A stretch of 64,000 nucleotides of DNA from Candidatus Obscuribacterales bacterium (GCA_019744775.1 JAIETZ010000007.1:1-64000), one strand, 5' to 3'. Shown: positions 2,394 to 64,000, counted from the first letter of the stretch. Notes: a model not told the origin generated them from the letters alone. A program made the numbers and translations.

Positions 2394-2419
2394 AGTGTTA
2401 TACCTCCAATAAAAAATGG

Positions 2420-2493
2420 CGGTGCATACGGGACTCGAACCCGCGACCTCTCCGCTGACAACGGAGTGCTCTACACAATTGAGCTAATGCACC
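2420..2493 (-). tRNA. tRNA-Asp (GTC), copy 1
   Basis: Full cloverleaf: acceptor GGTGCAT/ATGCACC, D stem GCTC/GAGC, anticodon stem CTCCG/CGGAG with loop TTGTCAG (anticodon GTC), T arm with loop TTCGAGT, discriminator G and encoded CCA at 2417-2419. The anticodon arm differs from the second Asp gene nearby only in the loop and closing positions. Confidence 0.93.
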
Positions 2494-2622
2494 GTGAAAA
2501 AGCGGACTATTGGATTAGTAGATTTCCAATTAGTCCGCCAAAGAGGGTTGGTCCGGAAAACCAGACTAACCCTCGGTCGCCAGGAAGCGGGTCTGTTCCA
2601 ACCTGCACTTAGGCGATTGTTG

Positions 2623-3051
2623 TTATGTCCAGAGATACTTGCGGATTCGAATGAGGCGGTGGAGCATCTTTTGATCCTCCTTCTCCCATTCGTCGTCTTG
2701 CTTACAAGACTCTTCGCAGTATCTGTCCCAGGCAGCAGCAATTTTGCCATCGGGGTCATTGATGGGTTTGTCTTGCGCGCATATCGGCGGGAATACGTCG
2801 TATTCGTAATTCGCTTCTACACGAGCGGGGCGGATGCGCACCCACCAGCAGTAGAGTTTGGCGATTTCTCGACGAGCTTTGCGATTCTGGCGGTTCCAGG
2901 TCCAGTCGATATGAGTGAAGGGCTTTTCGCCTTCGACGAAATCAACCAAGACTTGGAATGGTGCGTGCAATAGTGTGTTGCATCTGTCTACCCATTGACC
3001 GTCTGGTAGTGTTTTGATGTGGAGTCGGTTCCAGTTCTTTTTACCGCGCAT
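2623..3051 (-). CDS. Phage-like hypothetical protein within tRNA array
   Basis: This 142-residue protein is rich in Trp and charged residues. Its N-terminal part contains RLHIKTLPDGQWVDRCN followed by HAPFQVLVDFVEGEKP, which resembles a group of uncharacterised phage proteins with a 'LLHA.FQVLVDFVE' block. That resemblance is from memory and was not tested. There is no signal peptide or membrane segment. The start ATG at 3051 has GGAGAAAC upstream. The gene sits between tRNA-Cys and tRNA-Asp on the same strand, which supports a mobile or phage-derived origin for the array. Confidence 0.65.
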   Translation of the reverse strand: MRGKKNWNRLHIKTLPDGQWVDRCNTLLHAPFQVLVDFVEGEKPFTHIDWTWNRQNRKARREIAKLYCWWVRIRPARVEANYEYDVFPPICAQDKPINDPDGKIAAAWDRYCEESCKQDDEWEKEDQKMLHRLIRIRKYLWT

Positions 3052-3083
3052 GCGTTTCTCCGAAAGTGGAACAAATAAAAATT

Positions 3084-3166
3084 AGCCGGCAGTGAGATTC
3101 GAACTCACGTAACCCGAAGGTGCCACATTTGCAGTGTGGTGACTTTGACCACTTATCTATGCCGGC
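3084..3166 (-). tRNA. tRNA-Cys (GCA) with long variable arm
   Basis: Acceptor GCCGGCA/TGCCGGC is perfect over 7 bp. The anticodon stem CCACA/TGTGG carries loop CTGCAAA (anticodon GCA), the T arm is GTGAG TTCGAAT CTCAC, and the discriminator is U73, the normal Cys identity base. The variable region is 14 bases and can form ACC-TTCG-GGT, as in class II tRNAs, whereas tRNA-Cys normally has 4-5 bases. The D stem is only 3 bp. No CCA is encoded. Confidence 0.85.
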
Positions 3167-3170
3167 ATGG

Positions 3171-3244
3171 CGACGCGTAGGGGATTTGAACCCCTGTTCT
3201 CTCCGGTGACAGCGGAGTGCTTTAGACCGCTAAACTAACGCGCC
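3171..3244 (-). tRNA. tRNA-Asp (GTC), copy 2
   Basis: Acceptor GGCGCGT/ACGCGTC with one G-U pair, D stem GTTT/AAGC, anticodon stem CTCCG/CGGAG with loop CTGTCAC (anticodon GTC), T arm AGGGG/CCCCT, discriminator G and encoded CCA at 3168-3170. This is the second Asp(GTC) gene of the array. Confidence 0.93.
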
Positions 3245-3248
3245 GTGG

Positions 3249-3321
3249 AGTGACTGAGGGGACTCGTACCTTCAACCTTCTCTGTGTAAAAGAGCTGCTC
3301 TACCAATTGAGCTAAAGGAGT
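3249..3321 (-). tRNA. Degenerate tRNA-Val (TAC)-like gene
   Basis: The 5' half is good: TA then D stem GCTC/GAGC and an anticodon arm GCTCT TTTACAC AGAGA (anticodon TAC). The 3' half is damaged: the T stem GAAGG/CCCCT pairs at only three of five positions, and the acceptor arms ACTCCTT and CAGTCAC do not pair. A CCA follows at 3246-3248. It starts two bases after the CCA of tRNA-Phe. It is probably a pseudo-tRNA, unless repaired or edited. Confidence 0.55.
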
Positions 3322-3325
3322 ATGG

Positions 3326-3399
3326 TGCCACCAGTCCGTATCGATCGGACGACCTCCGGGGTTTCAAGCCGGCGCTCTTACCAACTGAGCTATGGTGGC
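3326..3399 (-). tRNA. tRNA-Phe (GAA)
   Basis: Acceptor GCCACCA/TGGTGGC, D stem GCTC/GAGC, anticodon loop TTGAAAC (anticodon GAA), T stem GTCCG/CGGAC with loop ATCGATA, discriminator A and encoded CCA at 3323-3325. The last anticodon-stem pair is a C-C mismatch, a mild irregularity. Confidence 0.82.
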
Positions 3400-3410
3400 A
3401 AAATAAAATA

Positions 3411-3484
3411 CGCGCCCCGTAGGAGTCGAACCTACACCGGCCGGATTTGGAGTCCGGAATGCTGACCAATTACAACAGGGACGC
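3411..3484 (-). tRNA. tRNA-Trp (CCA)
   Basis: Acceptor GCGTCCC/GGGGCGC, anticodon stem CCGGA/TCCGG with loop CTCCAAA (anticodon CCA), T arm GTAGG TTCGACT CCTAC and discriminator G. The D arm is irregular and one base longer than usual. No 3' CCA is encoded. It is the first gene of the minus-strand array. Confidence 0.85.
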
Positions 3485-4044
3485 ATATAGAAAGATGGAA
3501 GCAAGATCCACAAAGTCGAATCTTGCCTCACGGTGTTACATAGCCCTTAGCGCGAACCTTACACAACAACGCTTAGAGCTGTTCACAACATTCATCGAGT
3601 AACTAAAGATCTATTTCTCTCTTCTCCCTCTAACATTGCTCGCACTGCAAGCTAGATATGTTCTGAGGTGAGGTGTTGGATTTGTTTCTTTAGTTGTGTT
3701 CTCCGATGTTGTTGTGGGGGGTGGAAAAATGTGTACCCAAAACTAGCCAACTGGCAGATCCGAATGCAAGGCCTTGACAAAGAAAACCGAAAAAATCCTG
3801 AACATCAATACTGGTAAGGCTTTTGGGTGTTTTCAGTAGGTTAGCGCTAGTTAAGACAGCAAAAATTGGCAATAAGTGGTTCCCCCACTGAAGTCGTCAG
3901 TAGGCACACTTCGTAGCCCTAGTGCAGCTCATTACAACGTGGTGGCACCCGTGGTGGCGTGAATTTGTTAGACTCATAGACGCACCTTTGCGACTCACAC
4001 TTGAAAAGTTTCGCGTCAGCAATGCCACCATGGGAATACACGAC
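3485..4044. other. Intergenic region between tRNA array and coaX
   Basis: No supported gene. GCAAGAT at 3501-3507 and ATCTTGC at 3520-3526 form a hairpin just upstream of the tRNA array and may lie in its promoter or leader. The rest is AT-rich and should hold the divergent promoters of the array and coaX, but none is clear enough to place. Confidence 0.4.
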
Positions 4045-38621: not shown

Positions 38622-39248
38622 ATGAATAGCACTTTCAAATTGGATTACAACGAAATCCTCAAAGATTTCACAGACTATTGCGACACCAGGGATGAAGAAA
38701 CAAAGGTGAGTCTTTTGCTCGCCTACTCCCTCGCACATCTTGCACACGAAGGACACACTCGCAAAGCTGAGCCGGGTAACGCCATACAGCCGTACGTCAT
38801 CCACCCGATGCGCGTGATGTTGATCCTGGCTGAAGAAGTTGGCATAACCGAACCAGCAATACTAACAGCGGCACTCTTGCACGACGTCATTGAAGATGGC
38901 GAAGGTCGAGTGACGCTGGAAATGATTCGAAAACACTTCGGCGTAGCTGCTGACCACGTCAAAGCTGTCACCAAACAACCGGAAATGACTGAGACAGACC
39001 ATCAGCAGTACTACGACTTGATCATCAACGGTTCTCCGGAACCTCGCTTGGTCAAGTTTGCCGATCGCGCCGACAATCTCCGCAATGCGCTTGAGTTAAA
39101 GGACAAGAAATTCCAGCGTAAACAGTTGGAAGAAACCCGGAAATACTTTCAGTTGTCCAGAAATCCATCGCCGTACAACGGCTACGAAATCACTCTCTAT
39201 ATGGAGATCGCACGCCTCTGCGAACAGCTAAAGGCGCGCCTTGCATAG
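38622..39248 (+). CDS. HD-domain protein, small alarmone hydrolase-like
   Basis: The 208-residue protein has the HD layout of the RelA/SpoT hydrolase domain: AHEGHTRK (His42), YVIHPMRV (His61), AALLHDVIEDG (His87, Asp88, Glu91, Asp92) and KFADRADNLRN (Asp148). That set is what (p)ppGpp 3'-pyrophosphohydrolases use. No synthetase or TGS domain is present, so it would be a stand-alone hydrolase. A different phosphoester substrate is possible. ATG follows AAGGAGTCACAC. A second, shorter homologue is encoded at 45823. Confidence 0.82.
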   Translation: MNSTFKLDYNEILKDFTDYCDTRDEETKVSLLLAYSLAHLAHEGHTRKAEPGNAIQPYVIHPMRVMLILAEEVGITEPAILTAALLHDVIEDGEGRVTLEMIRKHFGVAADHVKAVTKQPEMTETDHQQYYDLIINGSPEPRLVKFADRADNLRNALELKDKKFQRKQLEETRKYFQLSRNPSPYNGYEITLYMEIARLCEQLKARLA

Positions 39249-50008: not shown

Positions 50009-50626
50009 ATGACAAGACAATTTCGAACTGAAAAAACTCTTGCGGTAATAGACATGGCACCGGCGCACAGTCGTTATTTGCCACTGAGCACCAAAGTCAT
50101 GCTATTCCACAACATGCTCATGCAAATTGAGCAAGCGATAAGTGACGGACAACCGGTAATTGTTCAAGACTTTCCCGACTCATCGGTAGCGGACGAACTC
50201 AGCTGCACTCATGACTTTGTCGTGAGTGCGTTGAGCGGCTACGCCGACAAATGCTTTATCAAAAAGCATCAAAACGATGGCTCGCAAGAAATTCTCGAAG
50301 CATGCCGGGACCAAGGCTATCCAACCAAGCACATTCAACTATGCGGATTGTTCACCAATCGCTGCATACGCGATACAGCCGTTGGACTAGCCAAACAACA
50401 ACCAGACGGCATCATCGAAGTCATGCGCACTGCCTGCGCATCAACAGATCCAGCGGACGAACTTCGACAGTGCTTTTGGAATCGCTTTTCAGAACCGAAC
50501 ATCACGATAACTCCAGCGCCGACCATCATCCCCTGGTCGGCGCACCAAGATGACGAACAACTCTACTTCAGTGTCAAAGCCCGCGACCACATGCGCCGCG
50601 ACTACGACGCGTACATTTCACTCTAA
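50009..50626 (+). CDS. Isochorismatase-fold cysteine hydrolase, copy 1
   Basis: 205 residues. The catalytic triad of the family is visible: Asp15 in LAVIDMAPAH, Lys85 or 86 in CFIKKHQNDGS, and Cys119 in LCGLFTNRCIRDTAVGLA. Family members hydrolyse isochorismate, nicotinamide or other amides; the substrate here is not evident. ATG after AAGGAGCTAA. It precedes a UPF0114 membrane protein by 18 bases. A homologue lies at 52058 beyond two envelope genes. Confidence 0.75.
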   Translation: MTRQFRTEKTLAVIDMAPAHSRYLPLSTKVMLFHNMLMQIEQAISDGQPVIVQDFPDSSVADELSCTHDFVVSALSGYADKCFIKKHQNDGSQEILEACRDQGYPTKHIQLCGLFTNRCIRDTAVGLAKQQPDGIIEVMRTACASTDPADELRQCFWNRFSEPNITITPAPTIIPWSAHQDDEQLYFSVKARDHMRRDYDAYISL

Positions 50627-51949: not shown

Positions 51950-51972
51950 GTAGGGGCGCATTGCATGCGCCC
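51950..51972 (+). repeat. Palindromic repeat family 1, copy 9
   Basis: Core GGGCGCATTGCATGCGCCC preceded by GTAG, followed by TTTTT so that here it could act as a terminator. Confidence 0.9.
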
Positions 51973-52002
51973 TTTTTACCCAAGTTCTCAATCTAACCCC
52001 CA

Positions 52003-52032
52003 ACACGCCGGTGAATTTCTTCACCGGCGTGT
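52003..52032 (+). terminator. Rho-independent terminator
   Basis: ACACGCCGGTGAA at 52003-52015 pairs perfectly with TTCACCGGCGTGT at 52020-52032, followed by CTTTTC. The next SD is 12 bases on. Confidence 0.82.
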
Positions 52033-52057
52033 CTTTTCACACAAAAGGAGCACATCA

Positions 52058-52609
52058 ATGAACATTCTCCAACTTCGCTACGACATCCGAATCGCCAAAC
52101 ATGTGCTCCTCGTCGTCGACATGCAACCTGTTTGGGCAACTTCCAACAACAAGGATTTGCAGGAGCGCATCGCGATGCTCATCAATTGGTCAATGCATCA
52201 CGGTTGCCCAATCATCTTTCTGGAATATCGCCATTCCGACAACGAGCCGACTGAGCGCAACACACAAGAATGTTTGCTCAAGTTAGTGCGTGACTACGAT
52301 CTCTACAGCAGAGTGCCAAAGCGCCAATCGCGTGGATCGGATGAAACCATTCTACGCTGCATCGAAGCCGGCTATCCAACCAACAACTTTATTGTTGCCG
52401 GAGTCGACGCTGATGCCTGCGTAATCAACACCGTCACAGGACTTGCACGCATGCGACCGAATGCACGCATCCAGGTCGTCCGCGACGCTTGCCGCGCATC
52501 CAACGAAATAACAAATAACGACGAGTCGTTCTGGAAGAGATTTGTCTTCAAGAATGTCTCTCTCTGTCAATTGCAAGAGTGCGCACCGTCCTCACCAACC
52601 AGCCTATAA
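52058..52609 (+). CDS. Isochorismatase-fold cysteine hydrolase, copy 2
   Basis: 183 residues. Catalytic residues visible are Asp21 in VLLVVDMQPVW, Lys88 in RVPKRQSRGSD and Cys121 in VAGVDADACVINTVTGLA. It is closer to the canonical family than copy 1 (VVDMQ retained). ATG at 52058 after AAAGGAGCACATCA; a longer reading from 51965 crosses the terminator and is rejected. The next gene follows after 11 bases. Substrate unknown. Confidence 0.82.
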   Translation: MNILQLRYDIRIAKHVLLVVDMQPVWATSNNKDLQERIAMLINWSMHHGCPIIFLEYRHSDNEPTERNTQECLLKLVRDYDLYSRVPKRQSRGSDETILRCIEAGYPTNNFIVAGVDADACVINTVTGLARMRPNARIQVVRDACRASNEITNNDESFWKRFVFKNVSLCQLQECAPSSPTSL

Positions 52610-52620
52610 GGAGCCAATCA

Positions 52621-53040
52621 ATGAAAACTGTTTCCGCTCAAGAAATGAAAGACCGACTAGGCATTGACATCGAACAGGAACGTCGGGAAAACATGACGCT
52701 CAATAGGCTGTGCTCTTTCCTTCATCGCGTAGCAATCGCCGGCGTCCATCCCAACAACATCGGTCTCGATGGACGCGTGGCGACTCAATCCCTCATCGAG
52801 CAGGGATTTGCACATCCCGAAGTCATCGCCAAACACTTCATCAAACGCGACGGAGAATATCCACTCGACGGCGCACATCTAAAACTCTACGGCGGCTTCT
52901 TCTGGACAAAAGAGGGACGTAGATTCGGCACGCTAAAACTCGAAAGCCCCGATTCCCGTGCCAACTTCGTCAACTTCTCCAAAGAAGTTGACGAACTCAT
53001 CGCGCACTTCTTCCCCGACCGTTCAGAAAGGAGTGAATAA
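52621..53040 (+). CDS. Hypothetical protein coupled to RNA ligase
   Basis: 139 residues. ATG at 52621 after AAGGAGCCAATCA. Helical N-terminus (SAQEMKDRLGIDIEQERREN), then LKLYGGFFWTKEGRRFGTLK and a C-terminal NFSKEVDELIAHFFPDRSER. Soluble. Its stop shares a base with the RNA ligase start (TAATG), so the two are translationally coupled and may form a complex. No family recognised. Confidence 0.6.
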   Translation: MKTVSAQEMKDRLGIDIEQERRENMTLNRLCSFLHRVAIAGVHPNNIGLDGRVATQSLIEQGFAHPEVIAKHFIKRDGEYPLDGAHLKLYGGFFWTKEGRRFGTLKLESPDSRANFVNFSKEVDELIAHFFPDRSERSE

Positions 53041-54860
53041 TGTCCCAACAATTCGGTTTCGGCAATGGACTGCCCTCACTCGATGAATTCTTCCAAGCAC
53101 AGCGCAACGGTTGGATCGTCTCAAGGACTCGCAAAACTTCCGACGGCTTGACCTACAGAATCTTCAACTACAGCAAACGCGCTCAATTCCATCGAGTCTG
53201 GACACCAGTCACATTGGTGGCGCGCGGTCTCATCTACTGCGAAGAGACCCAAGAAATTGTCGCTCTAGCCTTGGATAAATTCTTCAACCTCGGCGAAAGA
53301 ATCAGCGACACCGAATGCGCAACAATTCAGTCCGGCCCATTCGAGGCTCTAGTGAAATTGGACGGCGCACTCGGAATCGGCTACAGAGTAAATCAAGCAA
53401 TCTCCGTTGCCACCCGTGGTTCATTCGATTCACCACAGGCCTTGGCTGCGCAAACTCTCTGGAACGAGAAGTACAAACAACACGAACACCTCTTCTACAC
53501 CGAATGGAATCACATCACTCCGCTGATGGAGATTATCCATCCCGTTAGTCGAGTAGTGGTTCAATACGACTTCCAAGACCTCGTGCTGATTGCTGCTCGC
53601 AATCGTTTTACCGGCGAAGATATGCCGTATGAGTTTCTCGTCGAAATGTCTCAACGATTGGGCATGCCAGTCGTTGAGCGCTTCAGCAGCGACGATCTCG
53701 ACGCTATTCTCCTACGCGTAACAGAGCTGGACAGCAATCAAGAAGGCGTGGTACTTCACTGGCCGGACTATCGCGTAAAAGTCAAAGGTGACGAATACAA
53801 GCGTGTACACAGACTGCTTAGTGGAGCGACTCCACAATGCGTCGGACTTGCTTGGCTTAACGGCACTGATGAAGAGTTGCTGTTGATGATCCCCGAAGAG
53901 TTTCGCGAGAACAGCGAAAAGATTCTGTCGCGGTTGGAGGAGCAGCTCGTTGTTTCTGTTTTGGAAACAGAGGCAATTTACGGAACTGCTCCACAGACTG
54001 ATCAAAGAGAGTTCGCCGCATGGGTCAACCGGAATCACAAACAGATTTCGGCAGGTCTATTTGTCCGTCGTCTACTCGACACGGACGAATTCATCAACCG
54101 ACTCGTGGCGGACTCAATTGCTTCAGCAGCGAGAACAGGGCGCATTCAATCCATGCTCACAGACTCGCACCACGAGTCGTTGATTTCCCACCTGGATGCT
54201 TACGAGGAATCCGTCGGCAATGTGTTTTGGCATTTCGCGCGCGATGTCGAATCGGGCGCACAACTCCAACTCGAGTTAAGGAAGCTGACACACAAAGCCC
54301 TGCGAAGTGCTATGGCTACTGCCGTAGAAGAGCTGAAGCCGGAATTGGTTGAAATAAAGTTACAACAATATCTCAACCAACCCGAACAGAAAGCTTTATA
54401 CGGCGACCTCGATGTCCAATCGATTTTCGCCAGCGCACCTTCACCGGACAGCCCGCTTGAGCATCATCATCAGTGGATCGCGCAGTACTCGCCACAACTA
54501 AGATCGTTTCTCGATCGCTGGCGCTACTGCGGTCAACGACAATCTGCGACCAACGAAGCAAGAGGCATGCTTGCAGCAGCCATTCGCACCAATTGCGTCT
54601 CGAATGCCGGACCGTGCCAGATTGATTGCACTGAATTGGCAACTGAAATTACTCAACTCGCCAATGAAGTGAAAGACGTCTGGCAAAGCATTCCTCACGA
54701 AGAAGGACCACAAGCCATGTTGCAATTTGCTCGCAACAGCAAAAACGCTTGGGCATCCATCTTGCTCAACCAAGTGTGGCACTCACACCGCGAAGCGGTA
54801 TTCAACCGCTTCATCTCCGACCATAAAAATGACGTGACTGCCTTCGGCGACGAAGGTTAG
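53040..54860 (+). CDS. T4 Rnl1-type RNA ligase with long C-terminal extension
   Basis: 606 residues. All nucleotidyltransferase motifs are visible: motif I ALVKLDGALG with lysine 106 as AMP acceptor, an ARGLIY block before it, TRGSF near 126, the Glu-containing PLMEIIHP and RVVVQYDFQDLVLIA segments, motif IV EGVVLHW and motif V YRVKVKGDEYKR. T4 Rnl1 seals RNA ends such as cleaved anticodon loops using ATP. Here about 330 residues follow the catalytic core, helical and unrecognised, far more than T4 Rnl1 (374 residues in total). Translationally coupled to the gene before it. The enzyme is typical of phages and RNA-repair loci. Confidence 0.85.
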   Translation: MSQQFGFGNGLPSLDEFFQAQRNGWIVSRTRKTSDGLTYRIFNYSKRAQFHRVWTPVTLVARGLIYCEETQEIVALALDKFFNLGERISDTECATIQSGPFEALVKLDGALGIGYRVNQAISVATRGSFDSPQALAAQTLWNEKYKQHEHLFYTEWNHITPLMEIIHPVSRVVVQYDFQDLVLIAARNRFTGEDMPYEFLVEMSQRLGMPVVERFSSDDLDAILLRVTELDSNQEGVVLHWPDYRVKVKGDEYKRVHRLLSGATPQCVGLAWLNGTDEELLLMIPEEFRENSEKILSRLEEQLVVSVLETEAIYGTAPQTDQREFAAWVNRNHKQISAGLFVRRLLDTDEFINRLVADSIASAARTGRIQSMLTDSHHESLISHLDAYEESVGNVFWHFARDVESGAQLQLELRKLTHKALRSAMATAVEELKPELVEIKLQQYLNQPEQKALYGDLDVQSIFASAPSPDSPLEHHHQWIAQYSPQLRSFLDRWRYCGQRQSATNEARGMLAAAIRTNCVSNAGPCQIDCTELATEITQLANEVKDVWQSIPHEEGPQAMLQFARNSKNAWASILLNQVWHSHREAVFNRFISDHKNDVTAFGDEG

Positions 54861-58024: not shown

Positions 58025-59809
58025 ATGAAAGACAAACGTTTTGTTGCCTTCATGGCGGCATTCACTCTTTTGATCAACCTGATACTTTCCGCCTGTCCGG
58101 CATACGCCAATGGCAATGCAAAAATCGAATACCTGACACCGAAGCCGCTCGTCGACACGCTAAAGAGTACCGTCGCCCAACCCGTTCGCCCGGGCATCCT
58201 GTATATCCCGACCATCACATGGGCCGGCGATACCTCAATTATCTTCGCCGACCAGACTGGCGCCTTCCAACAAGAAGGACTCCAAGTGAAATTGTTCAAA
58301 GAGGACAACTTCGCCAAACAAGTTCAAGACTGCCTCAACGGAAAAACACCGTACGTTCGCGGCACGATGGGAATGGTCAACTCGGCAGCTGAAGCATTCG
58401 ACAAAGCCGGTGTGCCACTGGTCGTCATCTATCAGCTGACCTGGTCATCCGGTGGTGACTGCATGGTCGTTCGTCCAGGAGTCAACAGCTTGACTGACCT
58501 CAACGGCAAAACAATTGCGCTGCAGTTGTATGGTCCACACATGGACTTTGTCAACACAATTATCGAGAAAGCCGGTCTGGATGCAAGCAAAGTTAAGTTC
58601 AAGTGGCTACGCAATCTTGCTCTTCCGCTTAATGAACAGCCCATTGCTGACGACACCGTTTCGGCGTTCCAAAAAGACTCCAGCATCAATGCATGTATGG
58701 TCATTGCTCCGGATGCCGGAACACTGACAAATGGCAATGGTGCAGAAGGTTCGGTAAAAGGCGCCAAGACTCTCATCACGTCTGCCGCTGCCAGCCGCAT
58801 CATCGCTGATGTCTATGCCGTACGCAAAGACTACTACGACGCGCACAAAGCGGAAGTGCAAAAGTTCGTCCATGCTTTGATGGTCGGACAAGAGCGCTTC
58901 GATGCTTTGATGGCAAACAAGTCCGCCAACCAAGCGGCCTACAACGAGCTCATCAAGCGCGCTGCGGTTATGCAGTACGGCGACGACAGCAAACAGTCCA
59001 AAGACTTTGCTTCCGGATCACTAGGAGACTGCACATGGGTTGGATTCAACGGCAACGTTCAATTCTTCACCGGCAAAGGAACATCGAGAAATTTCGCTCA
59101 GCTCAACAGCGAAATTCAACCAGAGTTCCGCAGTCTTGGTTTGATGCGTGGCACGCCAAAACTCACCACAGCAAATTGGGACTACAACCAATTAGCTGCC
59201 GGACTGAGAAATGCCGATGTCAATGCATTACCGAAGCCAGCTCTTACGCCGGCTCAAAGAGCAGCAGTACAAACCAAAGCCACGCAAGCAATTGCAGCCG
59301 AGCCTACGAAGTGGCAACAGGACGGTACCTTGTACTCGTTTGAAGTTCGCTTCAAGCCGAATGTCCCCACATTCGACATCGACGAATACAAGAATTATTT
59401 CAAACAGGCGTACAACATTTCGCAACCTCTAGCCGGCGCCCTCGTGTTCGTCGAAGGACACAGCGCCCCGACATATGTTGTCGATTTGCAAGACCAAATT
59501 GCCGCAGCCAAAGCCGCCGGCAAGACACCTGCTGAAGTAGCCGTGTTGACCACCAAGTTGGCCGACAAGCAACGCGCCGCCAACAAACTTGGACTCGACC
59601 GCGCTAGAGCTGTCTGCAACGCATACATCCAGTATTGCAAGCAGAACAATCTGCCAGTCGATGAAAGTCAGTTCCAGCCGGTATCGATGGGTGCCAACGC
59701 TCCCAAGTATCGCAAGCCCACCAGCGAGTCGGAGTTCTACGAAAATTTCCGCGTAGTCTTCCGTATCAAAGAAGAGCAAGCTGAACCAACGACCTTCCAA
59801 GGCAAGTAA
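58025..59809 (+). CDS. Substrate-binding protein fused to OmpA-like domain, copy 1
   Basis: 594 residues. Signal peptide (about 1-28). Residues about 50-330 form a periplasmic binding-protein fold of the SsuA/NMT1/ThiY type: ADQTGAFQQEGLQVKLFKED, MGMVNSAAEAFDKAGVPLVV, GKTIALQLYGPHMDFV, VYAVRKDYYDAHKAEVQKFV. The C-terminal part (about 440-590) is OmpA-like (VEGHSAPTY, LGLDRARAVCNAYIQYC, FQPVSMGANAPKYRKP) and should bind peptidoglycan. No transporter permease follows, so it is more likely a ligand sensor or scaffold than a transporter part. ATG at 58025 after AAGGAGGTTCT. Confidence 0.82.
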   Translation: MKDKRFVAFMAAFTLLINLILSACPAYANGNAKIEYLTPKPLVDTLKSTVAQPVRPGILYIPTITWAGDTSIIFADQTGAFQQEGLQVKLFKEDNFAKQVQDCLNGKTPYVRGTMGMVNSAAEAFDKAGVPLVVIYQLTWSSGGDCMVVRPGVNSLTDLNGKTIALQLYGPHMDFVNTIIEKAGLDASKVKFKWLRNLALPLNEQPIADDTVSAFQKDSSINACMVIAPDAGTLTNGNGAEGSVKGAKTLITSAAASRIIADVYAVRKDYYDAHKAEVQKFVHALMVGQERFDALMANKSANQAAYNELIKRAAVMQYGDDSKQSKDFASGSLGDCTWVGFNGNVQFFTGKGTSRNFAQLNSEIQPEFRSLGLMRGTPKLTTANWDYNQLAAGLRNADVNALPKPALTPAQRAAVQTKATQAIAAEPTKWQQDGTLYSFEVRFKPNVPTFDIDEYKNYFKQAYNISQPLAGALVFVEGHSAPTYVVDLQDQIAAAKAAGKTPAEVAVLTTKLADKQRAANKLGLDRARAVCNAYIQYCKQNNLPVDESQFQPVSMGANAPKYRKPTSESEFYENFRVVFRIKEEQAEPTTFQGK

Positions 59810-59822
59810 TAGGAGAAGCACC

Positions 59823-60575
59823 ATGAAAACTCTCAAAAAGAATTTAATGGCGTTGACCCTGTGCTTGACGGCACTTTCGTTAACTGCTTGCGGGGACATC
59901 GCGCCCTCTGGCACTTCCGAATCATCGCCCCCAGCCGTTGCACAAGTCGATCAATCCGGCTATGTGCAATTGCAAGATCCGTTAGGACAACAAGGTGCGC
60001 AGCCAGGACAAATCTCCACTGCTCGCAATTTTGAGATTGTTCTCGATGCCTCCGGCTCGATGGCAGGATCCGCAATTGAAGAAGCTAAACAAGCAATTCA
60101 CAGTTTTGTGCAAAGCTTGCCGACTGATATCAATGTCGGTCTGGTCGTCTTTGACGGAAGCGGCATCCAAGAAAAGGTCTCTCTCGATGCTCCTGCAGCA
60201 AAAAATAGACAACAATTCCTGCAGGAAGTCCAATCGGTAGATGCTGGTGGTGGTACTCCACTTGCTGACGCCATGAATGTAGGATCAGGCGCATTGCTCA
60301 AGCAATGCCAACGGCAGCTCAACTATGGTGACTATCGCCTGATAGTCGTCACGGACGGGCAGCCTGACTGGGGACAAGACCTTGATAAAGCCTGTTCAAC
60401 GGCTGCTTCATACGGCTTTTCCATCTACACCATCGGCTTCAACATCGATGATGGCCACCCACTTAAAAACTGGGCAACCTCATACGAAACCGCATCCAGC
60501 GCTGACGAGTTGACCCGCAAGCTGCAGAACACTGCTGCCGAACCGGACAACTACGTGCCCACGTATCACAAGTAA
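59823..60575 (+). CDS. VWA-domain lipoprotein
   Basis: 250 residues. Lipoprotein signal ending SLTAC (Cys23). VWA domain with an intact metal-ion site: IVLDASGSMAGSAIEE (Asp75, Ser77, Ser79), GGGTPLADAMNV (Thr) and LIVVTDGQPDWG (Asp). Such domains mediate metal-dependent protein contacts. ATG after TAGGAGAAGCACC, 13 bases after the first SBP-OmpA gene, so they are co-translated or closely coupled. It probably sits on the periplasmic face as a partner of the two SBP-OmpA proteins. Confidence 0.88.
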   Translation: MKTLKKNLMALTLCLTALSLTACGDIAPSGTSESSPPAVAQVDQSGYVQLQDPLGQQGAQPGQISTARNFEIVLDASGSMAGSAIEEAKQAIHSFVQSLPTDINVGLVVFDGSGIQEKVSLDAPAAKNRQQFLQEVQSVDAGGGTPLADAMNVGSGALLKQCQRQLNYGDYRLIVVTDGQPDWGQDLDKACSTAASYGFSIYTIGFNIDDGHPLKNWATSYETASSADELTRKLQNTAAEPDNYVPTYHK

Positions 60576-60587
60576 CAACTCCCGCCT

Positions 60588-60623
60588 CAACAGCAGCTCG
60601 ATAAAACATCGAGCTGCCTGTTG
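60588..60623 (+). terminator. Intra-operon hairpin
   Basis: CAACAGCAGCTCGAT at 60588-60602 pairs (one bulge) with ATCGAGCTGCCTGTTG at 60608-60623. No T tract; probably a stabiliser or attenuator between operon genes. Confidence 0.6.
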
Positions 60624-60651
60624 TCGCGGTTTCCCTAAGGAGAAAACAAGA

Positions 60652-62157
60652 ATGAAACGCATACACGCAGCAATAGCGTTACTGCTCTTGCTTGTATTCT
60701 GTGGCGGCGTCTGGTTTTTCAAATTCCAAGAATCAGGCAAATCCATTCTCGTGGCAGGCGATGACTATCAGGGCTACGCCATCATTCGCTCAGACGAGAT
60801 GAGAAAACAAGCCAAACAACGTGGGCTGACAGTCAGCTTCACTCCTAAAGACAAAGGCAACTACGCAGATAGACTCGAAAGATTCTCGAAAGGTGAATAT
60901 CAAGCCATTGTCTTGCCCGTTAGCAGCTGGCTGCAACACGGCAAGCAATACAACTATCCAGGAGTCATCGTTGCTGCAATTGCCAAAAGCAATGGTGCGG
61001 ACGCCATTCTTGCTTTTCCACCTGTCAAAGAGGTCAAAGATCTCAACAATGGAAAACTAAAATTCGTCTACACCGCAGACAGCCCATCCAGCTTTCTGCT
61101 CGGACTAACTCGCACCGACTTCGGCATGGACAACCTGACCGAAGCCGACAAGTCCTGGCAAAAAGAAGTTGCGGGCGGCTCTGAAGAAGTCTATCAGCTA
61201 GCTCAACAACACAAAGGCGACGTCTTCGTCATGTGGGAACCGGAAGTCAGCAAAGCGCTACACACCATTCCCAATATGACGGTCGTGTGGGACTCAAGCA
61301 AATTCAATGGCTACATTGAAGATGTGATTGTGTTCCACAAAGACTTTGTGCGTGACCACAAAGGCGATTGTGTCAAGTTTATGGAAGCGTACTTCACAGC
61401 AATGCGAACATACAAAGCCAGCAAAGCCAATCACGATCGTTTGATAAAAGAGATCTGCGACGCAGTCGGTTGCAAACCGGAATTAGCCGAAGCAATGACC
61501 CAGAAGATCGATTTTCACGGTTTGCACGACAACTGCAATCGTCAATTCGGTATTTCCGGCGAACATAAAGCTGACGGCATTCTCAATTGCATAAGCTCTT
61601 GCATCAATGTTCTCGTTCGCACGAAAGAAATGCAATCAGAACCGCTCAGCGATCCAACGACAATTATCGACAAGTCGATACTGCAAGAAGTACATGATCA
61701 CATGCTCGCTGACGTCGGCAATGCCGATGCAGCCAAGCGTGAGTTCAGAGAACTTACAGCCGACGAATGGAAGACTCTAAAGGAGATAGGCGTTATGCGC
61801 ATAGAACCAATAGACTTCCTGCAAGGAGAATCAGACCTGGACGCCGACGCACAAAAGCAAGTCGATGCATTCGTCAAGCTTTTGTCAGTCAACTACACCG
61901 ATGCTCGCGTGGTCGTCAAAGGCCACACGGGACCAAGTGTAGATGGCGACGACACAGAAAACATCAAGTTGTCGCAAGCCAGAGCTGACGCTGTCATCAA
62001 TTACTTGACGACAGCAGGATTGTCTCCCAATCGCCTACGCGCAGTCGGCTGCGGTTCATCCGAACCGCCGGCACGCAAACCCGGCGAAAATCGCTTGTCC
62101 TTCAATCGTCGAAAACAGCGAGTGGAATTTGTCCTTTATAACGACACCGATATCTAG
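60652..62157 (+). CDS. Substrate-binding protein fused to OmpA-like domain, copy 2
   Basis: 501 residues. A single N-terminal hydrophobic helix (IALLLLLVFCGGVWFF-like, about 5-23) is a signal or anchor. Residues about 35-270 are a type 2 binding-protein fold (ILVAGDDYQGYAIIRSDEMR, QAIVLPVSSWLQHGKQYNYP, KGDVFVMWEPEVSKAL). The end is a clear OmpA domain: MRIEPIDFLQGESDLDADAQ, VVVKGHTGPSVDGDD, LSQARADAVINYLTTAGLSP, RLRAVGCGSSEPP. Peptidoglycan-binding Asp/Arg positions look present. It is shorter than copy 1 and differs strongly in sequence. ATG after AAGGAGAAAACAAGA. Confidence 0.85.
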   Translation: MKRIHAAIALLLLLVFCGGVWFFKFQESGKSILVAGDDYQGYAIIRSDEMRKQAKQRGLTVSFTPKDKGNYADRLERFSKGEYQAIVLPVSSWLQHGKQYNYPGVIVAAIAKSNGADAILAFPPVKEVKDLNNGKLKFVYTADSPSSFLLGLTRTDFGMDNLTEADKSWQKEVAGGSEEVYQLAQQHKGDVFVMWEPEVSKALHTIPNMTVVWDSSKFNGYIEDVIVFHKDFVRDHKGDCVKFMEAYFTAMRTYKASKANHDRLIKEICDAVGCKPELAEAMTQKIDFHGLHDNCNRQFGISGEHKADGILNCISSCINVLVRTKEMQSEPLSDPTTIIDKSILQEVHDHMLADVGNADAAKREFRELTADEWKTLKEIGVMRIEPIDFLQGESDLDADAQKQVDAFVKLLSVNYTDARVVVKGHTGPSVDGDDTENIKLSQARADAVINYLTTAGLSPNRLRAVGCGSSEPPARKPGENRLSFNRRKQRVEFVLYNDTDI

Positions 62158-62175
62158 TCACGGAGGTGACAATCG

Positions 62176-63147
62176 ATGACATTTGAAAGAAGGTCTCGCG
62201 GGACTGACAACACGAACAAACGTGATGGTCCTGTAACCAAACCAAAACCTGAGGATTTCGCGCCTGGCAAAGTAGCAATGGATGTTCGCACTGACATTCT
62301 CTGTCACCCGGCAACAATCTATCCGTTAGTTGGTTCGATTGGTGCCGTAGTTTGTGCGGTGTTCATTCCAGCTACGCTGCCGCTAACCGCAGGAATAGCA
62401 ACAATTGGACTTATAGCCAGCGGTGGCTCCTGGTATTACAACTACGTCGTCAAAGGCGAAGAGAAGGTAGCACAACGCTATGCTGATCTTCGCCAACAGC
62501 GCCGTCAGTACGAAGAACAGGAATTGCAACAACTGACCCTTGAATGCAAAAAGATAAAGTTCGCATCAGGAGTTGCAGAAGCTACCGAACTCAATGCAGC
62601 ATATCAACCCCTCCTGGATTATTTCCAGGAGAAACTTGCGAAAAGGTCAATTGCAACAGTTGAGCAATTTCAACTTCTTGCAGCAGACACTTATAAGCAG
62701 GGAGTTTCGGTGCTGGAAAAAGCACTTGATGTAACCAAAGCATTGAGCGCTTTCAATATCAAGGCACTGGAACGCGAGGTTGAAGGGTGGAAAGAAGAGC
62801 TATCGAAGGCCAAGGAAGGAAGCACAAAAGCTAAGACCCTTGAGCAACAGATTGCCTCACACACTCGCCGACTCGATCTCTACAACAAAAGGCAAGACCT
62901 ACAGCTCGAGCTGCTTGCCCAAGTCAACGAGATTGAATGCGCGCTGCAAACGACCTATCTCGAATTGGTCGACTTAGGAAATGGCGACATAAGTTCGTTC
63001 CTAGACAGAGACAGTGATGCTTCACACAGATTGCGCACAGCAGTCGAAGCTGCACGTCGAGTCGAGGACCGACTTAAAGGACGCAACACCGAAGACGAAC
63101 AACAATTGGACAAGTACAGAAAAGCTGCCCGTCGCGAACAACAATAA
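62176..63147 (+). CDS. Membrane protein with long coiled coil
   Basis: 323 residues. Basic polar N-terminus, two adjacent hydrophobic stretches (IYPLVGSIGAVVCAVFIPAT and LPLTAGIATIGLIASGGSWY, about 48-87), then a long helical coil (RYADLRQQRRQYEEQELQQL, EREVEGWKEELSKAKEGSTK, HTRRLDLYNKRQDLQLELLA). Probably a bitopic or hairpin inner-membrane protein with a cytoplasmic coil that could bind the PspA-like product next to it. ATG after CGGAGGTGACAATCG. No family recognised. Confidence 0.7.
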   Translation: MTFERRSRGTDNTNKRDGPVTKPKPEDFAPGKVAMDVRTDILCHPATIYPLVGSIGAVVCAVFIPATLPLTAGIATIGLIASGGSWYYNYVVKGEEKVAQRYADLRQQRRQYEEQELQQLTLECKKIKFASGVAEATELNAAYQPLLDYFQEKLAKRSIATVEQFQLLAADTYKQGVSVLEKALDVTKALSAFNIKALEREVEGWKEELSKAKEGSTKAKTLEQQIASHTRRLDLYNKRQDLQLELLAQVNEIECALQTTYLELVDLGNGDISSFLDRDSDASHRLRTAVEAARRVEDRLKGRNTEDEQQLDKYRKAARREQQ

Positions 63148-63243
63148 CGTTCGCACAAGCAGTGCTTTGGATTCACAGTTTTAACCCGCGGCTGAGTTAT
63201 GCATCGTGCATAAACAGTCGCTCCAAACCATGAGGATATCATC

Positions 63244-64000
63244 ATGACAGAAGGTAAAATCGGCTTTTTCGCAGCTCTGTGGCGCTTCGTCTCCCTGTAC
63301 GAAGCAAGAAAGGCACTCGGACTTGTTCGCGCTGCCGACAAAATGTTCACCGGCTCGGCAGCGGGCATCAGCGACGGATTCGCCATGTACCGCGAACAAC
63401 TGGTCAAGAACTTCAACGACCTCACTCAAGCGGTCACCCAATCGGAAACCGCACACGAAATGATGGTGACCAACCTTCAAAATCTTCTCAAGGAAATCGA
63501 GGACAAGAAGGAGCTCCAAGCAGGTGCAGATCAGCTTTACGATGAGGCCGAAGCTGCAAAAGACGAAGGTGAAATGAAGAGAGCTCGCGAGGATAGTGAA
63601 CGCTTCACAGCAGAACTAGCCAAACTGCAGCAGGAAGCCACAGACCTTGAAGCTCAAATCAAGCAGGACGAGATCGAAGTCAAAGACCTGGAAGCTCAGC
63701 TCAGCAAGATGCTCAGCGAAATCGAAAACCTCAAGGGCGAAGAAGCCAAGGAAGTGGCTAAGTTCATCACGAACAAATCACTCATCGATGCTCGCGAGCG
63801 GGTTGCCGGACTGAAGTCCCGCCTCGACAGTTCGCCTATTGATGCGATAAAAGCATCCAACAACGAACTTGCTGCCAAAGCCAAAGTACTTGGACGAGTC
63901 ACTCGTGCCACGACCAACGACCAAGACGAGAAGTATCGCAAGGCCGCACGCAACACCGAAGCATCCGATGCCTTCGAAAAGCGTAAAGCTGCTCGAGAAG
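63244..64000 (+). CDS. PspA/IM30-like coiled-coil protein (partial)
   Basis: At least 252 residues, continuing beyond the window. It is a long chain of charged helices (FAALWRFVSLYEARKALGLV, LVKNFNDLTQAVTQSETAHE, LAKLQQEATDLEAQIKQDEI, KVLGRVTRATTNDQDEK). The size, helix order and amphipathic N-terminal region suit the PspA/Vipp1/ESCRT-III-like family, which coats and remodels the inner membrane under stress. The match is by pattern only, and other coiled-coil families remain possible. ATG after GAGGATATC. It lies in the operon with SBP-OmpA and VWA genes. Confidence 0.65.
   Translation, partial: MTEGKIGFFAALWRFVSLYEARKALGLVRAADKMFTGSAAGISDGFAMYREQLVKNFNDLTQAVTQSETAHEMMVTNLQNLLKEIEDKKELQAGADQLYDEAEAAKDEGEMKRAREDSERFTAELAKLQQEATDLEAQIKQDEIEVKDLEAQLSKMLSEIENLKGEEAKEVAKFITNKSLIDARERVAGLKSRLDSSPIDAIKASNNELAAKAKVLGRVTRATTNDQDEKYRKAARNTEASDAFEKRKAARE

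Follow-up and report, generated by a model that had tools for sequence, protein, structure and literature searches.

What task would bring periplasmic binding proteins, coiled-coil proteins and two kinds of ATPase together in one run of genes? The question is raised by a stretch of 64,000 nucleotides from Candidatus Obscuribacterales bacterium (GCA_019744775.1 JAIETZ010000007.1:1-64000), hereafter the window, which forms the start of contig C7 (125,565 bases) in a genome of 4.1 Mb in 13 contigs. Nine consecutive plus-strand genes span positions 58025-69012 of this contig, the fifth running across the end of the window and the last four lying beyond it; the gaps between them range from 13 to ~110 bases, with one overlap. 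Judged by the comparisons reported here, they are the Obscuribacterales copy of a widespread bacterial envelope operon. Our preferred reading, to which we give a probability of roughly 0.4, is that the operon would encode an envelope-protection machine that links the uptake or sensing of small anions to membrane remodelling. The parts, their order and its conservation, the intact ATPase and metal sites and a likely topology can be established from the sequences.

Gene layout

The first gene (58025..59809) encodes SBPO1, a protein of 594 aa with a signal peptide, an NMT1/SsuA-type periplasmic binding fold and a divergent C-terminal OmpA-like domain, as recognized by Pfam and a family alignment; we refer to such fusions as SBP-OmpA proteins (SBP, substrate-binding protein). 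It is followed by VWA (59823..60575; 250 aa), a lipoprotein with the lipobox LTAC and an intact metal ion-dependent adhesion site (MIDAS), and by SBPO2 (60652..62157; 501 aa), which has an N-terminal transmembrane (TM) anchor, a divergent SBP half and an OmpA domain. The fourth gene (62176..63147) encodes MEMC, 323 aa long, for which an AlphaFold2 model, hydropathy and a 25-member alignment indicate a TM region at the N terminus and a long helical domain that presumably lies in the cytoplasm. COIL (63244..64074, the window ending at 64000; 276 aa) is a coiled coil that is PspA-like in hhalign comparisons. Past the window, contig C7 continues with an SBP lipoprotein, SBPL (64184-65299), an ATP-binding cassette (ABC) permease, PERM (65401-66231; BPD_transp_1), an ABC ATPase, ATP (66246-67217), and an AAA+ ATPase of the classical clade, AAA (67207-69012). 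All nine genes lie on the plus strand. Strong terminator-like stems are found directly upstream of SBPO1 and between SBPL and the permease, and an Rfam scan revealed no RNA elements close to the operon. A preliminary description of the window, made from its sequence alone, had reported five consecutive plus-strand genes from SBPO1 to COIL, and all five are present where it placed them.

Conservation of the gene order

A profile search with SBPO1, using one genome per species, yielded 171 relatives, and the 80 best bacterial loci among them were read. The window, two Vibrio plasmids, phage G and a 595-kb phage (LR756511) bring the set to 85. Most of the loci were selected by SBPO1, and the counts apply to loci chosen in this way. 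Genes were considered adjacent if they lay on the same strand and within 600 bases of each other; many loci are contig fragments, so the pair counts are lower bounds.

The recurring order is SBP-OmpA, VWA, SBP-OmpA, membrane coil, coil, SBP, permease and ATPase. On the wall side SBPO1-VWA is adjacent in 81 of the 85 loci, VWA-SBPO2 in 70 and SBPO2-MEMC in 63. The slot after MEMC is occupied either by COIL or by TelA, a protein discussed below, the counts being 35 for MEMC-TELA, 12 for MEMC-COIL, 25 for TELA-SBPL and 11 for COIL-SBPL. For the transporter they are 37 (SBPL-PERM) and 41 (PERM-ATP), and ATP-AAA is adjacent in nine. Because this order repeats in dozens of unrelated genomes, a chance arrangement is excluded, and its recurrence across the 85 loci bears out the initial treatment of the genes as one unit.

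The bacterial loci come from many phyla, including Acidobacteriota, Desulfobacterota and Gammaproteobacteria. The Vibrio plasmids are large, with a PRTRC gene and a replication gene of the RctB type, and in their TelA-type operons the ABC ATPase comes first. SBPO1 of the window is 98% identical to that of its closest named relative, a Candidatus Obscuribacterales metagenome-assembled genome, and on the strength of this identity the host is placed beside the cyanobacteria, as a non-photosynthetic relative of that group. The operon is present once in the host genome. Since only four of 35 relatives within the host's genus and family have SBPO1, its distribution points to gain and loss of the operon within these taxa.

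The ABC importer

The absence of a visible ABC permease or ATPase had led the preliminary description to regard the binding folds as sensors. The observation holds within the window, but both genes are located 1.4 to 3.2 kb past its end, and the argument falls with the discovery that SBPL, a permease and a competent ABC ATPase follow directly. The ATPase carries the Walker A, signature, Walker B and H-loop motifs; together with the BPD_transp_1 permease and an NMT1/SsuA-type SBP it makes up an importer of the TauT/NitT type. Among solved structures the SBPs of the operon are closest to taurine, sulfonate and nitrate binders.

This complete and intact set, and the kinship of its binding proteins, would suit an ordinary importer of organic anions (of the sulfonate, taurine, nitrate or urea type) with several SBPs, the remaining genes merely stabilizing or localizing it. 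We consider this unlikely. The transporter varies more than the VWA/SBP-OmpA/coil core: of 14 genomes in which SBPL was not seen beside the core, eight have a strong SBPL match elsewhere, two a weak one, and four, namely both Photobacterium genomes and two others, none at E 1e-20. TauABC, SsuABC and NrtABC share the SBP, permease and ATPase families with the window, which adds two SBP-OmpA fusions, the VWA lipoprotein, the coils and the AAA+ ATPase; no metabolic enzymes were recognized among the conserved neighbours examined, and no catabolic genes were seen travelling with the operon. The label of urea transporter is rejected, the TIGR03427 score being 323.9 against a cut-off of 333.9 bits and no urea carboxylase in the genome scoring over its cut-off. 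It had been anticipated that ABC genes just beyond the window would favour an ordinary transporter; they do exist, but because the companion genes are conserved with the transporter we do not take the nine-gene unit for one.

Wall-side proteins

The domain calls made initially for the first three genes hold. SBPO1 matches Pfam NMT1 at 1.5e-13, its OmpA match being weak (0.016, 16 bits against the Pfam cut-off of 27.2), and the protein is predicted to be secreted. In SBPO2 the OmpA domain scores 58.7 bits (7.7e-16), above the same 27.2-bit cut-off, and the SBP half gives a weak TIGR03427 match (1.6e-6, residues 50-274); the protein is held by a TM segment at residues 4-22. VWA matches its Pfam family at 9.6e-19. 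The lipoprotein with an intact metal site that had been described is likewise confirmed: the lipobox is present, as it is in SBPL, and the MIDAS residues (DxSxS, Thr and Asp) are complete, with D-x-S-x-S and TDG found in 83 of 84 family members. The VWA protein of the 595-kb phage has a C-terminal TM segment in place of the lipobox, which suggests that anchoring of this protein to the membrane is important.

The membrane coil and the coil slot

As had been proposed, the fourth gene encodes a membrane coiled coil. The AlphaFold2 model of MEMC has a pLDDT of 86.7, and no Pfam family matched the protein. In Foldseek and VIA-align comparisons its closest folds were helical bundles, BAR-type ones among them, with scores no higher than chance would give; ESCRT-III is absent among the structural matches listed.

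The COIL family profile aligns with twelve PspA proteins of the host's clade at 86.9% in hhalign, collinearly over 189 columns, whereas the controls against the same proteins gave 0.5% (membrane coil) and 1.5% (TelA). One of 11 COIL relatives matches Pfam PspA (E 1.7e-4). An AlphaFold model of COIL (pLDDT 71) superimposes on E. coli PspA (4whe) with a Z score of 10.2 and a root-mean-square deviation of 2.2 over 121 residues; its listed matches also include chains of Vipp1 and ESCRT-III. The host encodes a separate, true PspA elsewhere, from which we conclude that COIL is not its phage-shock protein.

Across the 85 loci the slot after MEMC holds either COIL, in 13 loci of which two have identical sequences, or TelA, in 40, and never both. 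The COIL form is seen, for instance, in Acanthopleuribacter pedis and Sulfidibacter corallicola, and the TelA form in Hahella. TelA was recognized as PF05816 at ~1e-70 in the three loci tested and was not found in the window operon. The possibility that COIL and TelA are homologues was rejected, their profiles comparing at 0.3-0.6%. An AAA+ gene of the window family follows the ABC ATPase in nine of the 13 COIL loci versus none of the 40 TelA loci; of the four COIL loci in which it was not seen, two break off before the position where it would lie, and the 595-kb phage lacks such a gene nearby. In a tree of SBPO1, built by a quick method and with the phage on a long branch, the COIL and TelA types part at a 99% branch. 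One TelA locus, from Cyclobacteriaceae, is nested within the COIL clade, a position that a further refilling of the coil slot in that locus would explain.

The prevalence of TelA, a "toxic anion resistance protein", in the commoner form of the operon raises the prospect of a system for sensing and resisting toxic, tellurite-like oxyanions. The SBPs would then recognize the anion, and the membrane would be shielded by TelA or by the PspA-like coil; structures beneath the membrane have been proposed for TelA (PMC7824862). We find this decidedly unlikely. An importer would carry the toxic anion inward, and while TelA sits in the coil slot of 40 related loci, the window copy possesses neither it nor Ter genes; TerC, TerD and metal-handling genes were not recognized as conserved neighbours.

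Copies in very large phages

The 595-kb phage LR756511 contains eight genes in the order of the window. Phage G and phage-G-like viral contigs display a reduced form, with a compact five-gene order of permease, ABC ATPase, small protein, TM-anchored PspA-like coil and SBP-OmpA, and a terminase is present in nine of the 11 phage-G-like contigs tested. In phage G the cassette falls within gp243-250. In Lak phages (two were read), the 735-kb LR756501 and the 462-kb LR756500 the set is likewise reduced, with genes for a small protein, a membrane coil, SBP-OmpA, permease and ABC ATPase. All 15 Lak records (15/15) include SBP-OmpA. In 50,697 phage records, SBP-OmpA matches of nearly full length came solely from megaphages and one 38-kb fragment, and scans of viral contigs with the bacterial SBPO1 profile and the protein of the 595-kb phage gave zero confirmed matches. 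The membrane coils of the Lak-type and 735-kb phages are weakly or not similar to bacterial MEMC, and common descent of the phage and bacterial membrane coils is unproved by these comparisons.

Two further proposals were discarded. The cassette is not universal to megaphages, since a search of phages of 642, 636 and 484 kb gave no match; nor is the window a prophage, the host genome having no match in a search for terminase and the operon being single copy.

At least five megaphage lineages, together with phage-G-like contigs that have a terminase, hold relatives of the operon, and huge phages reportedly possess proteins of the membrane or cell surface by which susceptibility to other phages may be altered (PMC7162821). 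The operon might then be a resident barrier to phage entry or lysis, with which megaphages would exclude superinfecting phages or maintain the energized state of the host membrane. Of the explanations considered this seems to us the least probable: PADLOC gives no specific match, just generic ABC, AAA and MotB-type ones, the three large phages named above do without the cassette, and bacterial copies are mostly in ordinary genome contigs.

A proposed mechanism and its relation to known systems

In the envelope-protection machine that we favour, SBPO1 and SBPO2 would hold their binding domains close to the wall or the inner membrane, beside the importer, and VWA would clamp or gate these SBP-OmpA proteins via its metal site. 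MEMC would signal to the cytoplasmic face which state this periplasmic complex is in. There the PspA-like COIL may assemble on the membrane, by analogy with ESCRT-III, and the AAA+ ATPase would dismantle the assemblies, much as Vps4 does with ESCRT-III; in other bacteria TelA occupies the same slot. The likely task would be to protect or mend the inner membrane when the envelope is under stress, with a small organic anion as trigger or fuel. As the genes appear to link wall-side binding folds to a cytoplasmic coil, the connection across the membrane that the preliminary description had envisaged is plausible. The route of signalling that it proposed, from SBP-OmpA through VWA and the membrane coil to PspA, is a tentative one.

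In a bolder form of this proposal, which we think somewhat unlikely, the operon would represent a class of bacterial membrane machine in its own right, ESCRT-III-like and with its assembly under the control of an ABC transporter that uses SBP-OmpA proteins on the wall side as sensors. The reduced or complete copies in several of the largest phages would then serve to preserve the host envelope, or to shut out rivals, while a long infection runs its course.

Operons combining PspA/Snf7, AAA+, ABC and SBP/OmpA genes, exemplified by OGG56892.1, appear in a passage of Ravi et al. (mSystems 2024; PMC11237479), where they are read as ATP-dependent membrane remodelling tied to solute transport; the AAA+ protein of that class has two AAA+ domains, the N-terminal one inactive. 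The window operon very probably belongs to this class, with which, as that passage presents it, it has in common the PspA-like coil, membrane coil, AAA+ ATPase, ABC ATPase, permease and SBP-OmpA fusion. The VWA lipoprotein, the presence of two SBP-OmpA genes with a third SBP, the TelA alternative and the phage and plasmid copies go beyond the passage. Literature searches aimed at a gene order that includes VWA or TelA, or at phage copies of the cassette, returned just this 2024 passage and general remarks. The kind of operon is, to judge from that source, already known in outline and uncharacterized. The earlier statement that no system with this order had been described is therefore right only in part, such operons being outlined in that passage.

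The phage shock system (PspA with PspBC or the AAA+ protein PspF) shares with the window a PspA-like coil, presumably at the membrane, and a linked AAA+ gene. In contrast, the window operon lacks PspB, PspC and PspF, its AAA+ protein belongs to the VCP/spastin/Vps4 group, and the true PspA is encoded separately. With ESCRT-III and Vps4 it shares a coil resembling the PspA superfamily that adjoins a classical AAA+ ATPase, whose C-terminal AAA half has intact Walker A and B motifs. It differs from them in that the sequence similarity is remote, no MIT domain was seen, and the genes are coupled to an ABC importer.

Several observations weigh against the envelope-protection reading, the first of which concerns the wall. 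Binding of peptidoglycan by OmpA domains normally uses the Asp and Arg of the diaminopimelate (DAP) site (GHxD and LSxxR, as in Acinetobacter OmpA). SBPO1 of the window has GHSA, with Ala for the Asp that is kept in 80 of 84 relatives, and SBPO2 has GHTG rather than GHTD, its family nearly always possessing GHT followed by G, S or A; the Arg is retained in both. As the Asp is missing from both proteins, wall binding by the pair is doubtful in this lineage, and of the peptidoglycan-binding OmpA domains described initially, the domain in SBPO2 is sound but the binding is in question.

The coils present similar difficulties. Profile comparison of MEMC with PspA gives no support, and the idea that MEMC is a PspA/Snf7 homologue was rejected. 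COIL of the window has no match to Pfam PspA (PF04012), falling below the gathering score, and the match of its model to PspA is no better than that of unrelated helical bundles. The initial suggestion that the last gene is PspA-like consequently survives in the remote hhalign match but not in Pfam or the fold comparison: COIL is PspA-like by sequence profile, with the fold unproved, and is not a member of PF04012.

Further points concern the AAA+ ATPase. Its N-terminal half compared with its own AAA half gives 0.9% in hhalign, which is not a significant match, and neither the TelA loci nor the 595-kb phage copy has a window-family AAA+ gene nearby. A different AAA gene sits divergently and directly upstream in six loci, mostly of the TelA type (L040, 8085-9563; L034, L041, L045, L065 and L075), which limits the statement that TelA loci lack an AAA gene to the AAA family and position seen in the window. 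Finally, a search of the literature found no experiment on any member of the operon.

Genomic surroundings

Upstream of the operon a T4 Rnl1-type RNA ligase gene is located at 53040-54860 (PF09511, 3.5e-15), near two genes (50009-50626 and 51965-52609) that by eye are isochorismatase-like, the first of them without a Pfam match. HD-type hydrolase-like proteins, also recognized by eye, are encoded at 38622 and 45823. A minus-strand cluster of five tRNA genes occupies 2417-3485, with a sixth, weak tRNA-like match at 3254-3316. Long, mostly plus-strand runs of small genes of unrecognized families extend over 25000-57700 of the window and 69000-95000 of contig C7; a genomic island around the operon is possible on this evidence.

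Implications

The order of these genes is nearly unchanged from Obscuribacterales to Acidobacteriota, Desulfobacterota, Gammaproteobacteria, marine plasmids and a 595-kb phage, which makes an important role likely. The operon offers a testable bridge between bacterial solute transport and membrane remodelling of the PspA/ESCRT-III type, and the natural swap of a PspA-like coil plus AAA+ ATPase for TelA could reveal what TelA does. The megaphage copies pose a question of their own, namely what use some phages of ~460 to 735 kb have for an ABC importer and a binding protein on the wall side.

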